From assembly GCF_014279815.1 (NCBI RefSeq), contig NZ_CP047941.1, forward strand, positions 1,116,001 through 1,180,000: DNA of 64,000 bases. The letters run 5' to 3'. The notes under the pieces were generated by a model. It was not told the DNA's origin and did not search any database. It was given only the letters and a program-made list of their open reading frames with translations. Shown one piece after another: positions 39,005-60,570 of this stretch (positions within the stretch are counted from its first letter, which is position 1; each line of letters opens with the position of its first letter). A program made the translations under genes and the position numbers. The DNA comes from Synechococcus sp. NOUM97013. GTDB lineage: Bacteria > Cyanobacteriota > Cyanobacteriia > PCC-6307 > Cyanobiaceae.

Positions 39005-39696
39005 CATCTTAAGTGAATCAGTCGCGTCGACTCTGGTTTTCATCACAGTTCCAGTTCCTGTCATCTGTCTTTAATGTTATAATGTCGAATTTTTTGCTAC
39101 ATATATACGATGATTGTCTATTCACGATTTAGTTATATAGTATCATTTAATGGGTGCTGAAATGATGGGATTAAATACTTAGATGATGCCAGATTGATTA
39201 ATCTGGCATCGACCTCATTAGAGAAGAAACAGGAAGATCACGATAAACGAGGATCCGATGAGAAAAAACTTATCTGGACCGTTATCAATATCGAAAGGCT
39301 CGTAGGGTTCAGGAATCATGAAAAGCTGTTGATCAAGGTTCAATCTAGTCAATCGCTGAACGGTTCTGTGGTCGAGAGAGTGATCTTTGCCTTAACTCCT
39401 TTGCCTATAGAGAAGGGTTTTGAGTTCACCAGCTTTTGTCAGAGCTCCTCACGTCAGGCTATGGGATTACAAGATGATGTTTCCTGATCAATCTATATTC
39501 ATCAGTCGTTTGACGATATGACGATGCCTTGTCAGCTTGGGGATCTAAGTGTTAAGGGTCTTGTGTCCGACTGTCTCTCATTGAGGCTTTTTGCTTGAAA
39601 AATTGATTCTGTATAACAATGATTTTTGCTTTTATTGATCAACGGACGCCAGCTTTGATTACGCAAGGTCTCATTTTGATTGAATTGCTGATCTGA
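39005..39696. other. AT-rich spacer with hairpin and a doubtful frame
   Basis: Roughly 690 bp with no convincing gene. It contains a perfect hairpin at 39185-39210 and a TTG-started frame of 97 codons (39194-39487, plus strand) whose composition is not protein-like enough to call. Short T-rich and A-rich tracts occur throughout. Confidence 0.5.
39185..39210. repeat. Perfect 11-bp inverted repeat
   Basis: GATGCCAGATT at 39185-39195 and AATCTGGCATC at 39200-39210 with a 4-nt loop. No T-run follows on either strand, so it is not a standard terminator. Confidence 0.8.
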
Positions 39697-45844: not shown

Positions 45845-46078
45845 TCAATGGTTGTGGTCATGGCCGCTGTGGTCATCGTTGCCGACGTTGTCTTCCTCGC
45901 AGGGGAGCCAGATTCCTTCCCATTCATACGCACCTTCACAGCCAAGCTCCTGAGCTTTGGTTAAAGCTTCTGCCTTGGTGGCATATCCGAAGTCATCCTC
46001 TGCAGCCACTGACGATGCCGACAACAGTCCAACAACGGTGACGCTGGCGCCCATCAGCAGATGGATGAGAGGTGTCAT
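45845..46078 (-). CDS. Exported DUF3721 protein with His-rich tail
   Basis: 77 residues: signal peptide (cleavage likely after SSVAA), a short DUF3721-type domain (YATKAEALTKAQELGCEGAYEWEGIWLPCEE, with two cysteines) and the tail DDHSGHDHNH. The tail could bind metal ions. Role unknown. A second DUF3721 domain, also flanked by histidines, is encoded at 56061. Confidence 0.72.
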   Translation of the reverse strand: MTPLIHLLMGASVTVVGLLSASSVAAEDDFGYATKAEALTKAQELGCEGAYEWEGIWLPCEEDNVGNDDHSGHDHNH

Positions 46079-53539: not shown

Positions 53540-54751
53540 ATGGATCTTGACGCGTTGCATCAGGAGCTGGTCTCCAGCCCAGATCTGCTGATTGTTCAAG
53601 ACCTGGATGGTGTCTGCATGCCTTTGGTGCGGGACCCATTAACGCGCCAGTTGCCAGCTGATTACGTTCAGGCCGCCTCAAGCTTGCGTGGCAGTTTCTC
53701 GGTGCTGACCAATGGTGAGCATGAAGGCCGACGCGGTGTGAATCGCCTGGTGGAGCAGGGGCTGGATGATCCGGGTCGAGCGAAGCGGGATGGCTTGTAT
53801 CTACCGGGATTGGCGGCCGGTGGTGTTCAGCTGCAAGACGAATTTGGTCGCTTGTCCCACCCAGGGGTGAGTGATGAAGAAATGGCGTTTTTGGCCGCAG
53901 TCCCCGATCACATGGCATCTCTGCTCGCTCAGGCCCTGCCGGAGCTGATGCCCGAGCTCGGCCCTGATGAGCTTCAGACCGAAATCGATCGCGCCATTCT
54001 CGATATGCAGGTGGCGCCGACGATCAATCTCAACAGCCTTTACTCCAGGGTTGCTGGAGATGTGCTCCGTCAGCGTGCGCTACAGGGGATGTTGGAAAGC
54101 GTGATGCAGAAGTTGATGGCGATGGCTGCAGCCCAGGGGTTGTCGGAGTCTTTCTTTCTGCATGTCGCTCCGAACTTGGGTCGTGATGCTCAAGGGAAAG
54201 AGCGCTTGAAACCCGCCACGGAGGGTGATGTCGGCAGTACGGATATCCAGTTCATGCTGCGTGGCTCGATCAAGGAGGTGGGCTTGCTGGTGTTGATCAA
54301 TCGCCACATCGCCGCACGCACGGGTACGGCTCCGTTGGGTGATGACTTCAACGTCCGCACTGCACCCCACGATCACGACTCCCTGATTGAACTCTGCAAG
54401 CAGAGGATCGCCCGTGATCAGATGCCTCATCTTGTTGGGGTCGGTGACACGGTCACATCCACACCCTGCCCATCCGGTGAGGGGTGGTTGAGAGGTGGGA
54501 GTGATCGAGGTTTCCTCACGCTCCTTCAGGAGCTGGGAGCGACCTTCGGACAATCCAATCGTGTGGTGCTTGTCGACAGCAGTGGCGGTGAAGTGGACCG
54601 ACCGTCGTTGTCGGATGGAACGCTTGCAGGAATTAGTGACCCTGACGATCTGCTCCAATTTGACGTCTGCATGCCGGGTGGCCCGGATCAATATGTTGCG
54701 TGGTTTGTGGACATGGCGAGAGCGCGAAGCTTGGCGGGCTTAGGCCGTTGA
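53540..54751 (+). CDS. stpA: Glucosylglycerol-3-phosphate phosphatase
   Basis: Dephosphorylates glucosylglycerol-phosphate, the last step in making the osmolyte glucosylglycerol, a main compatible solute of marine Synechococcus. 403 residues from ATG 53540; GTG 53477, overlapping the GST stop, would give about 424. HAD-like motif LIVQDLDGVCMPLV with the nucleophilic aspartate, VLTNGEHEGRRGVN, and VGVGDTVTSTPCP near the C-terminus. The synthase GgpS is not in the window. The stop overlaps the TTG start of arsS. Confidence 0.83.
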   Translation: MDLDALHQELVSSPDLLIVQDLDGVCMPLVRDPLTRQLPADYVQAASSLRGSFSVLTNGEHEGRRGVNRLVEQGLDDPGRAKRDGLYLPGLAAGGVQLQDEFGRLSHPGVSDEEMAFLAAVPDHMASLLAQALPELMPELGPDELQTEIDRAILDMQVAPTINLNSLYSRVAGDVLRQRALQGMLESVMQKLMAMAAAQGLSESFFLHVAPNLGRDAQGKERLKPATEGDVGSTDIQFMLRGSIKEVGLLVLINRHIAARTGTAPLGDDFNVRTAPHDHDSLIELCKQRIARDQMPHLVGVGDTVTSTPCPSGEGWLRGGSDRGFLTLLQELGATFGQSNRVVLVDSSGGEVDRPSLSDGTLAGISDPDDLLQFDVCMPGGPDQYVAWFVDMARARSLAGLGR

Positions 54752-55758
54752 CATCGTCAGAATCAACACCAGCTGCGTCCGCCAAGCTGACCATTTCAAC
54801 GCCACCGTTCAGTCCGGAATCGCCGTCCTTTCCTCCGCTTCGTCGTCAGCGCTTGTCGACCTTGCAGGTGAATCTGGGATACCGCTGCAATCAGTCCTGC
54901 AGCCATTGCCATGTGAATGCAGGCCCTTGGCGCCAGGAAATGATGGCCCAGGACTTGATTGAGCTGATCCCCAAGGTGCTCTCAGCTCAGAATTTGGCCT
55001 GTTTGGACCTCACCGGTGGGGCCCCAGAACTCCACCCACAGTTTCGGTGGCTTGTGACTGCCGCGCGTGCCTTGGGTGTGACCGTGATTGATCGCTGCAA
55101 TCTGACGATTCTGAGTGAACCCGGCCAGGAGGATCTGGCTCGTTTTCTTGCTGATGAAGGTGTTCGCGTCGTGGCATCACTGCCCTGTTATGAGCAGGAG
55201 CGTGTTGACTTGCAGAGGGGGCAGGGGGTGTATGAACGCAGCATTGCCGGGCTCAAGCTGTTGAATCAGCTTGGTTATGCCCAGCCTGGTTCATCGCTGG
55301 AGCTGGATCTGGTGTTCAATCCGTTGGGTGTTGCATTGCCACCCCCGCAAGCCTCATTAGAGGAGCAGTACCGAGAGGCCTTGTGGCAGACCCATGGCAT
55401 CCGCTTCTCCCATCTGCTCACGATCACCAACATGCCGATTCAACGCTTTGCGCGGGATCTCCAACATCAGGGTGCCCTGGAGAGCTATATGACGACCCTG
55501 AAGGCAGCGCATCGTCCCGACAACCTGAGCCAAGTGATGTGCCGGAGTTTGATCAGCGTCAGTTGGACGGGATCACTCTTCGACTGTGATTTCAATCAGC
55601 AACTCGACCTGCCGACTGCTGGAACCGCGCGTCAGCTGATTGATCTTCTTGATGAAGACGATGCCCTGGTGGAGCAGCCCATTGCCGTGGCTGATCACTG
55701 TTTTGGCTGCACGGCTGGAGGTGGATCCTCTTGCGGGGGTGCCCTCAGCTCTGGGTGA
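54748..55758 (+). CDS. arsS: Arsenosugar biosynthesis radical SAM protein
   Basis: 336 residues from TTG 54748, overlapping the stpA stop (TTGA). Radical SAM cluster motif CNQSCSHCHVNAGP and a C-terminal DUF3641-like cysteine cluster (CRSLISVSWTGSLFDCDFNQQ, CFGCTAGGGSSCGG) as in ArsS. This family joins 5'-deoxyadenosyl to dimethylarsenic on the way to arsenosugars. The usual partner ArsM is not adjacent. The end overlaps the mini-SepF gene by 14 bp. Confidence 0.85.
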   Translation: MTSSESTPAASAKLTISTPPFSPESPSFPPLRRQRLSTLQVNLGYRCNQSCSHCHVNAGPWRQEMMAQDLIELIPKVLSAQNLACLDLTGGAPELHPQFRWLVTAARALGVTVIDRCNLTILSEPGQEDLARFLADEGVRVVASLPCYEQERVDLQRGQGVYERSIAGLKLLNQLGYAQPGSSLELDLVFNPLGVALPPPQASLEEQYREALWQTHGIRFSHLLTITNMPIQRFARDLQHQGALESYMTTLKAAHRPDNLSQVMCRSLISVSWTGSLFDCDFNQQLDLPTAGTARQLIDLLDEDDALVEQPIAVADHCFGCTAGGGSSCGGALSSG

Positions 55759-56041
55759 CTCTTGTGGTGGCTGGGGTGAACAGGAACACCAGCTCTCCCA
55801 ACCGATACTGCTGACCGTCAAGGGCGCGCACCCCACCGGAGACGAAATCGGCAGTTCGTTGGGCTGTGTTCGCATCCATCTTGCTCAGATCCAGCACCAC
55901 GGTCTGTTGCTCGCGCACCGCCAACACGGCTGACATGCCTTCATCGATGGAATGAGGACAGATCAGAATGAACGTATGCGAACCGTTGGCAGCTTGAGGA
56001 TTCATCACTGCCAGCCTGCCAATCTTTGAGCTCGGCTGCAC
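55745..56041 (-). CDS. Short SepF-domain protein
   Basis: 98 residues from GTG 56041; ATG 56005 would give 86. Nearly the whole chain is a SepF domain: TVVLDLSKMDANTAQRTADFVSGGVRAL followed by YRLGELVFLFTPATTRV. SepF tethers FtsZ to the membrane, but the N-terminal membrane-targeting helix and linker of normal SepF (about 190 residues in cyanobacteria) are missing. Probably a paralogue; role unknown. Confidence 0.75.
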   Translation of the reverse strand: MQPSSKIGRLAVMNPQAANGSHTFILICPHSIDEGMSAVLAVREQQTVVLDLSKMDANTAQRTADFVSGGVRALDGQQYRLGELVFLFTPATTRVTQS

Positions 56042-56060: not shown

Positions 56061-56528
56061 ATGACTGAATCTTCAACACCTGATTCCTCACCAGCGCATT
56101 GCGGGAGTAAGCCCAAGCGTTTTGCTGTGGGGATTGCTCCACTGGGAACAGTTTCCATCGGCATTGTCCCGATGGGCGTCGTCTGCATTGGTGTGGTGCC
56201 GATGGGGGTGGTCTCCATCGGAGTGGTTGCGATGGGAGTGATCAACCTGTCTATCGTCGGGATGGGCTTGTTGGCAGTTGGTGTCAACACGATGGGTGTT
56301 TGGACAGCTGGTCCGATGAGCATGGGGCTGGTCCGCTTGGGTGGATCGAGCCAGGGTCATGACCACAGCGCTCACCACGGATCAGACCGATCAGAGGATC
56401 CGCGTTACTTGGCTTACCCAACTCGCGCTGAGGCGGAGGTGCAGGCGAAATTGATCGGTTGTGAGGGGGTGCATCAGATGGGCAGCCACTGGATGGCCTG
56501 TTCAGAGCATCCAGCCGATCACCACTAG
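56061..56528 (+). CDS. Decapeptide-repeat membrane protein with C-terminal DUF3721 domain
   Basis: 155 residues. Residues 24-93 are seven tandem 10-residue repeats of the form G-[IV]-x-x-M-G-x-[VIL]-x-[IVL] (examples GIVPMGVVCI, GVVPMGVVSI), giving a strictly periodic, glycine-spaced hydrophobic block. A His-rich linker (GHDHSAHHGS) leads to a DUF3721 domain (AYPTRAEAEVQAKLIGCEG, CSEHPADHH). The repeats may form a membrane-embedded or beta-solenoid structure. Function unknown. Converges with a Fur-family regulator 5 bp away. Confidence 0.78.
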   Translation: MTESSTPDSSPAHCGSKPKRFAVGIAPLGTVSIGIVPMGVVCIGVVPMGVVSIGVVAMGVINLSIVGMGLLAVGVNTMGVWTAGPMSMGLVRLGGSSQGHDHSAHHGSDRSEDPRYLAYPTRAEAEVQAKLIGCEGVHQMGSHWMACSEHPADHH

Positions 56529-56532
56529 AACT

Positions 56533-57000
56533 TCAACGGCAATCTGGACAGATGCCTCGCACATTCAGGCTCGAATCAATCAGTTCGAAATCGAATTGAT
56601 CACAGGAGTCCCTTCCGGCTTGAAGCACTGCTTCGCTTTCAAACTCTTCGGTTCGACCGCAGCGGACACAGACCAGGTGGTGGTGATGAATATGCTCCTC
56701 GTCGGCCAGTTCAAATCGACTGCCTCCCTCGCGCAGCTCCAGCTCCTGCAGGAAATCCATCTCCACCAGCAACCTCAGCGTTCGATAGATGGTGGCCAGG
56801 GACACCTTGGACTGTTGATCCACTAATTGGCGGTGCACCTCTTCTGCACTGAGATGACTGCCGCTGCCGATCTCCTCGAACAGATCCAGCACAAGCCGAC
56901 GCTGAGGGGTCATGCGTCTCCCGTCCTGGTGCAGACCCTTTTTCAGGGTTCCATTCGCTTCAGCCGGTGAGCTTGCTGGCGACATGGAGAACGAAGGCAT
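56533..57000 (-). CDS. Fur-family metal-responsive regulator
   Basis: 155 residues. Winged helix (RRMTPQRRLVLDLFEEIGSGSHLSAEEVH, SLATIYRTLRLLVEM with the recognition helix), then HIHHHHLVCVRCGRTEEFES and a terminal CPDC, giving the two CxxC pairs of a structural zinc site and the histidine metal site. Closest to Fur/PerR of cyanobacteria; iron, zinc and peroxide sensing cannot be told apart by eye. A perfect palindrome lies 5 bp upstream of the ATG, so self-regulation is likely. Confidence 0.88.
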   Translation of the reverse strand: MPSFSMSPASSPAEANGTLKKGLHQDGRRMTPQRRLVLDLFEEIGSGSHLSAEEVHRQLVDQQSKVSLATIYRTLRLLVEMDFLQELELREGGSRFELADEEHIHHHHLVCVRCGRTEEFESEAVLQAGRDSCDQFDFELIDSSLNVRGICPDCR

Positions 57001-57004
57001 CGTT

Positions 57005-57028
57005 TCTCAATAGTACGCACTATTGAGA
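57005..57028. promoter_or_regulatory. Perfect palindromic operator candidate at the Fur-family gene
   Basis: TCTCAATAGT and ACTATTGAGA separated by ACGC: two exact 10-bp arms. It ends 5 bp before the start codon of the Fur-family gene, in the place expected for an autoregulatory site. It does not match the classic Fur box. Confidence 0.7.
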
Positions 57029-57157
57029 CTCAAGAACAAGGGGTGTTCCAAAGCAGGCGCATGGTTGGGTGGATGATCATCGAATGCATGGAAAAGTGAA
57101 CCCGATATGGTGGGTCGGTTCTTGCTGAGATGAGTGTCAGTCCCCTGGACCGTGACG

Positions 57158-57370
57158 ATGCGCTTTATCGCAAGCGGTCTGTTTCTGATCGCTCATGGTC
57201 TGCTTGTGTTGGAACACATCGCATTGGGGACAGCACTGCACGGTGTCGCTGAGGTGTTCCTAGCTCCCTGGGCTCTGCGTCATCGAGCCTGGGACCTGAT
57301 CGTGATCGGTTTGATTTTCTGTATTTTCGATTTATGGGGCACGCTGCGCTTGGTCAACGTGATTGGTTGA
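57158..57370 (+). CDS. Small two-span membrane protein, unknown
   Basis: 70 residues from ATG 57158; GTG 57134 would add eight. Two hydrophobic stretches (FIASGLFLIAHGLLVLEHIALG and LIVIGLIFCIFDLWGTLRLV). No family recognised. The stop overlaps the end of the convergent exported protein by 17 bp. Confidence 0.6.
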   Translation: MRFIASGLFLIAHGLLVLEHIALGTALHGVAEVFLAPWALRHRAWDLIVIGLIFCIFDLWGTLRLVNVIG

Positions 57371-60355: not shown

Positions 60356-60570
60356 CGGTCAGTGCAAAGCTTTTTTAGCTCTGGTCAGACCATTTGTCCT
60401 GTTGTCCGCCGTGCTGCTTTGCTCTAGCCAATGCCAGCGTGTACAGCGTGACGCATCTCTGTGTTAATTGGATGGCCGCCTTGGAATGGTCAATGCACCA
60501 GTCTCGGTTGGTGCATTGACTGGAGTATTGCCGCTAACGGTGAGCCTTGCGCAGACAGATCTGCGTCGTT
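60356..60570. other. Spacer downstream of ycf54
   Basis: About 215 bp without a gene; includes a perfect inverted repeat at 60489-60520. Confidence 0.5.
60489..60520. repeat. Perfect 11-bp inverted repeat after ycf54
   Basis: GTCAATGCACC at 60489-60499 and GGTGCATTGAC at 60510-60520 around a 10-nt loop. It lies 3' of ycf54 on the minus strand. No U-run follows, so it may be a stabilising 3' hairpin or a protein site, not a standard terminator. Confidence 0.8.

Follow-up and report, generated by a model that had tools for sequence, protein, structure and literature searches.

A conserved inverted repeat in front of a picocyanobacterial fur gene is probably the operator through which Fur controls itself

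Do an exact palindrome, the Fur-type regulator gene behind it and the repeat-protein gene that converges on this regulator form a metal-sensing unit of their own, as the first-pass annotation of this DNA suggested, or is the palindrome an element of the regulator gene itself? The locus lies in a stretch of 64,000 nucleotides (the window), which is part of a single-contig genome of 2.55 Mb. Since the regulator has its closest named relatives in records labelled Synechococcus (89-91% identical), we take the source to be a marine picocyanobacterium, and its family is termed here the picocyanobacterial family. Fur is a central iron regulator, and picocyanobacteria are primary producers that are often limited by iron. 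Two fur loci on NYVG01 contigs (L007 and L008) carry a gammaproteobacterial bin label, yet they encode the same Fur protein at 90% identity within a Synechococcus-type fur region; this label is probably wrong and the contigs mis-binned.

The regulator gene, fur, occupies positions 56533-57000 on the minus strand and encodes 155 amino acids as listed. Its product belongs to the Fur family, with the FUR domain (PF01475) matched over residues 26-147 at an E-value of 4.9e-33, over the Pfam cut-off. The first Met that six near relatives (L004-L009) have in common with the window protein is residue 6, and because this is the only Met shared, the true start is probably at 56985, which gives 150 amino acids. 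Orthologues were matched in 104 of the 121 genomes of the picocyanobacterial family, including all 76 good ones. The protein reads SRFEL and TEEF, with Glu at both ligand positions, and CVRC and CPDC, which make two CxxC pairs. Fur is told apart from PerR by a Glu in place of an Asp at these positions, and the Glu residues together with the CxxC pairs argue for Fur (iron) over PerR. Among the NCBIfam models, none of which reaches its own cut-off, a Fur model scores best (109 bits, cut-off 220), and a PerR model (77 bits, cut-off 180) scores above one Fur model (73 bits). The product is very probably the picocyanobacterial orthologue of Fur, its role in iron regulation being transferred from FurA of Anabaena.

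Positions 57005-57028 form an exact 10-4-10 palindrome, TCTCAATAGT-ACGC-ACTATTGAGA, as the first reading had it. It had also been placed over the start of the regulator, from which it is in fact separated: it stands upstream of the listed ATG (57000), with 4 bp in between. The same stretch can be read as two 9-mers, TCTCAATAG and CTATTGAGA, with six bases in between, and both arms read TCTCAATAGT and contain the TCTCAATA core of the cyanobacterial FurA box. With up to three mismatches allowed, the palindrome matches one place in the window and one in the whole genome. Taken alone, a palindrome with arms of this length is near chance level, as the window holds three exact palindromes with arms of at least 10 and a spacer of at most 8, compared with 0-1 per sequence in ten shuffled versions. 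The other two lie at 39185-39210 and 60489-60520 and have arms of 11 and 12 bp. The significance of the palindrome thus appears to arise solely through comparison among fur loci, and it becomes convincing because the fur upstream regions of many cyanobacteria carry the same inverted repeat. On its exact match, its uniqueness, its conservation and its Anabaena FurA half-site, we propose 57005-57028 as the 24-bp form of a Fur autoregulatory operator.

Conservation within the picocyanobacterial family was examined in 111 fur loci (that of the window, six named ones and a further 104 found in 103 genomes). Two loci with less than 60 bp upstream (L161 and L166) were excluded, leaving 109 regions for the consensus, the free-spacing scan and the counts of PerR presence. 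The fixed consensus TCTCAWTARNNNNTAYTRTTGAGA was found in 94 of these regions with up to four mismatches and in 92 with up to three; the same regions reversed gave 4 and 3, respectively, and shuffled regions gave 1 in 1090 at up to four mismatches. A free-spacing scan with the half-sites TCTCAAYAR and YTRTTGAGA detected a site in 95 of the 109 regions at up to three mismatches (shuffles, 0.7%), and all 95 sites scored have six bases between the 9-mers. As the consensus and the half-site patterns were written after part of the data had been seen, the counts for the family and for the first 16 loci outside it are optimistic. An alignment of 94 regions shows high information in the operator columns and in one further A (92/94), falling to near zero on both flanks. 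Many family sites are imperfect palindromes that keep a T:T mismatch (TCTCATTAG / CTATTGAGA). The free-spacing scan left 14 regions without a site. Five of them, four from one genus (g9; L168-L171) and one from another (g49; L167), belong to the most diverged Fur proteins (46-48% identity), two (L129 in G059 and L131 in G111) have a site with one mismatch further upstream, and the remainder are L031, L040, L098, L104, L106, L111 and L148. When the 121 genomes were scanned in full at up to two mismatches, 79 of them contained a match; matches away from fur were few and came mainly from genomes no larger than about 2 Mb, with about 20 in the reversed control.

Outside the family, 56 cyanobacterial fur loci were collected, 16 from a class-wide fur search and 40 hand-picked across families with their sequence unseen. 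The fixed 24-base consensus fails here, with 7-9 mismatches in all of the first 16 loci, and the match appears once the spacing is allowed to vary; the free-spacing scan was therefore applied. It detected a site with up to three mismatches in 51 of the 56 upstream regions (shuffles, 1.3%), including 38 of the 40 loci whose sequences were retrieved once the half-site was already known. Two operator-like sites stand before fur in three of the loci (L178, L180 and L181) and, in the accessible part of PMC4005646, before furA of Anabaena. The number of bases between the 9-mers is seven in 44 of the 51 sites, six in four and eight in three. By these scans, the putative fur operator is an old element, deeply conserved among cyanobacteria, and in picocyanobacteria the spacing of its half-sites is one base shorter than in most other cyanobacteria. 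The link between palindrome and regulator proposed in the first-pass annotation is strengthened accordingly in one respect, namely that the site stands before orthologous fur genes both in the family (95/109) and outside it (51/56).

The half-sites are thus 16 bp apart in most of the sampled lineages versus 15 bp in all 95 picocyanobacterial sites. It is conceivable, although we hold it only tentatively, that picocyanobacterial autoregulation uses a different geometry between Fur dimers on this ancient operator. With one base removed, the two bound Fur units would be rotated by about 35 degrees relative to each other, and a different dimer-dimer geometry would therefore be required, perhaps matched by changes in the dimer contacts of picocyanobacterial Fur itself. 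The spacer change of one base offers a simple way to probe co-operation between Fur units on DNA.

The position of the repeat relative to the fur promoter suggests how it may act. A likely -10 element, TACTAT, lies inside the putative operator on the minus strand (57010-57015); it is predicted from the 94 aligned sites, in which the corresponding columns of the family consensus TAYTRT show the first T in 88, the A in 91 and the last T in 94. A very weak -35-like hexamer, TTGTTC, may be placed 18 bp further upstream (57034-57039, minus strand). Across the family, columns -10 and -9 weakly favour T (48/94) and G (53/94), and the first T of TTG (17/94) is not favoured. A plain sigma-70 scan at its threshold reported no promoter in front of fur. 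The operator likely overlaps the fur -10 element, which is the arrangement of a simple repressor. We consider it very probable that the palindrome is Fur's own operator and that Fur represses its own gene through it when iron is sufficient, the binding of Fur, repression as its direction and iron as its signal all being transferred from Anabaena FurA. Under sufficient iron, metal-loaded Fur would occupy the two TCTCAATA half-sites, mask the -10 region and repress the transcription of fur; iron shortage would release Fur from the site and allow fur to be transcribed. In Anabaena, FurA reportedly binds the furA promoter (title of Hernandez et al. 2006). According to the accessible part of PMC4788461, Anabaena FurA rises under iron limitation, which fits a release of Fur from its site when iron is short. 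A fixed operator of this kind would be a precise place at which to measure or change iron feedback in picocyanobacteria.

We also checked whether the palindrome marks a wider regulon. The genome scan that had been proposed for this purpose returned, at up to three mismatches, a single place, the fur site, and no further copies before other genes of this genome. Its core, CAATAGT-N4-ACTATTG, has two other exact matches, each in a 23S rRNA gene, and three further ones with two mismatches (L075-L077). A regulon defined by the palindrome was rejected, the other core matches being at chance level or in rRNA, and the palindrome seems to serve fur alone in this genome. No TCTCAATA-type site was found upstream of L224, which by eye we take to be an idiA/futA-like gene; Fur would therefore need other sites elsewhere. 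The long-chain flavodoxin family TIGR01752 has no match in the genome.

Boxes of the 7-1-7 form are bound by Fur-family dimers. The canonical Fur/Zur box of this form (TGATAATNATTATCA type) occurs at 31 places elsewhere in the genome at up to two mismatches, versus four in a reversed control. A scan of the whole genome for the TGATAAT-N-ATTATCA-like core at the same threshold does not place 57005-57028 among them, so the palindrome is indeed unlike the standard Fur box, as had been noted; it is not undescribed in kind, its half-site being that of the Anabaena FurA box. The 7-1-7 boxes were first read as Fur boxes; a cluster of them at 994-1010 kb lies beside znu-like and CobW-like genes, and they may belong to Zur. 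The surrounding region (G000:C1:985000-1015000; L172 and L173) contains znu-like ABC genes, a CobW-like GTPase gene, several 7-1-7 boxes and two DUF3721 copies, and looks like a zinc or metal island, the znu-like and CobW-like names being our own assumption, assigned by eye.

The gene that converges on fur encodes a GLTT-repeat and DUF3721 protein of 155 amino acids (56061-56528, plus strand), with both domains over the Pfam cut-off (PF01744, GLTT, 59.1 bits; PF12518, DUF3721, 58.5 bits). The convergence of this His-rich repeat protein with the regulator was correctly seen at first, with a distance of 5 bp that we correct to 4 bp (56529-56532). Such a gene converges on fur in 19 of the 111 loci; in 18 of these, including the window, it has both GLTT and DUF3721, and in one (L040) the DUF3721 part only. 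A more widely kept convergent neighbour is an arsS-like radical SAM gene (54700-55758, plus strand; TIGR04167, E 1e-133), which lies within the fetched flanks of at least 57 of the 111 loci and always points at fur. Most of these flanks covered about 1.5 kb and some stopped at a contig end, so that both neighbour counts are minimum values. More widely, arsS and fur face each other, and in some lineages the DUF3721 gene is placed between them. On the minus strand, divergent from the DUF3721 gene, 55745-56041 encodes a 98-residue protein with little beyond a SepF domain (PF04472), which has homologues in 15 of the 111 loci, window included. On the other side of the operator, a small divergent ORF of 78 amino acids (57134-57370, plus strand) is found in near relatives only (9/111 loci, window included).

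Besides the repeats, the DUF3721 proteins conserve an N-terminal HCG (17/18) and, in their DUF3721 part, Cys, His and Met residues that could serve in metal binding. The His-rich linker varies, and some homologues (L019, L023, L030 and L032) lack it. Structure prediction gave a poor model (mean pLDDT 45, pTM 0.26), in which only residues of about 121-150, a helix and a hairpin, are of moderate confidence. No relative was found in the PDB at an E-value of 1 or in phage records, and no paper on DUF3721 (PF12518) was found in the accessible open-access literature. The genome has four DUF3721 domains in all, the second one in the window lying at 45893-45985 on the minus strand. Our preferred guess is that the protein is a small one of the membrane or cell surface that binds metal and stands outside the switch.

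The idea from which the analysis started, that fur, the palindrome and the GLTT/DUF3721 gene make up one metal-response unit, appears quite unlikely to us; in such a unit the DUF3721 protein would bind metal and be co-regulated with fur or antagonised by it through convergent transcription. The idea draws on the 18 loci (19 of 111 with L040) in which these proteins converge on fur, on the conserved Cys, His and Met, and on two of the other three DUF3721 copies, which lie in the region with genes that we presume, by eye, to be for metal uptake. However, no operator-like site was found upstream of the DUF3721 gene, where even the best match in each of the 19 loci has 5-8 mismatches and the nearest 7-1-7 matches have three (L015, L019 and L040), or five in the window. 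Adjacency to DUF3721 is also confined to a minority of fur loci, arsS being commoner (57/111), and the convergent genes have no common promoter. The DUF3721 gene is, as far as these comparisons go, a gene neighbour of fur, and a shared metal-response unit is not supported. The small undescribed metal-sensing unit of the first-pass annotation therefore gives way to a widespread Fur orthologue with an occasional convergent neighbour that has no related box upstream, and the impression of a new module is corrected to a core that is most likely Fur autoregulation.

Another protein than Fur could also bind the palindrome and control fur, be it PerR/FurC-like, Zur or an unknown core regulator, which we regard as unlikely. 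PerR is known to control fur in other bacteria, and this genome holds two other Fur-family members, Zur (L003) and a protein without CxxC pairs, presumably PerR-like (the name is taken from Anabaena FurC). At E 1e-20, 24 of the 76 good genomes show no match to the PerR-like gene; the operator is kept in 21 of these 24, and in 45 of the 51 that have both the gene and a readable upstream region, in a tally that omits the six named loci (L004-L009), which may overlap with other genomes in the set. Because those 21 genomes keep the site, the PerR-like paralogue would not be needed, and PerR is unlikely as a general binder, though a very diverged PerR could be missed at this threshold. The possibility that the window regulator is itself a Zur of the SynZur type was rejected, its similarity to SynZur (7ne9) being 46 bits versus 180 bits for L003. 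In the accessible part of PMC9337993, eight Zur-dependent genes of strain WH8102 are named (synw0968-0973, bmtA and synw0360), together with zur itself as an artefact of the construct; fur does not appear among these genes. Zur is unlikely to bind the fur operator because fur is absent from these named targets and because SynZur and the window protein are only distantly similar. The half-site shared with the Anabaena FurA box and the single site in the genome, with no second one for a wider regulon, also speak against another regulator. Finally, an exact inverted repeat near a start codon might form a hairpin in the leader RNA of fur or serve as a terminator, but this is very improbable: many family sites keep a T:T mismatch that is unexpected in a hairpin, the likely -10 element within the repeat would place it upstream of the transcript, and the scan reported no terminator-like site at the repeat.

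Autoregulation by Fur through the palindrome thus remains the preferred reading, and it can be set beside known systems. SynZur of Synechococcus WH8102 (PDB 7ne9; PMC9337993, accessible part) is, like the window regulator, a Fur-family metalloregulator of the same bacterial group, and its orthologue here is L003, not the window regulator. Unlike the 7-1-7 box, the palindrome at fur is even-centred, with TGAGA-like halves pointing outwards. In the accessible open-access literature, no description was found of the inverted repeat across cyanobacteria or of its one-base contraction, which is weak evidence of absence; the operator is known in kind, and its class-wide conservation and one-base-shorter picocyanobacterial spacer may be new details. 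The closest likeness is to FurA and the furA boxes of Anabaena sp. PCC 7120, which share the Fur orthologue type, the half-site TTCTCAATAA and predicted boxes before the regulator's own gene. As far as PMC4005646 is accessible, the Anabaena FurA consensus AAATAAATTCTCAATAAAT contains the half-site TCTCAATA, and its Table 1 lists predicted furA boxes ATAAATATTCTCAATAAGC and TGTTATATTCTCAATTAAC, at 90 and 42 bp from the ATG, respectively, the predictions being made with a matrix trained on eight footprinted sequences. Whereas that Anabaena consensus is 19 bp long, the picocyanobacterial fur gene of the window is preceded by one compact, perfectly symmetric site of 24 bp, with six bases between its 9-mers.
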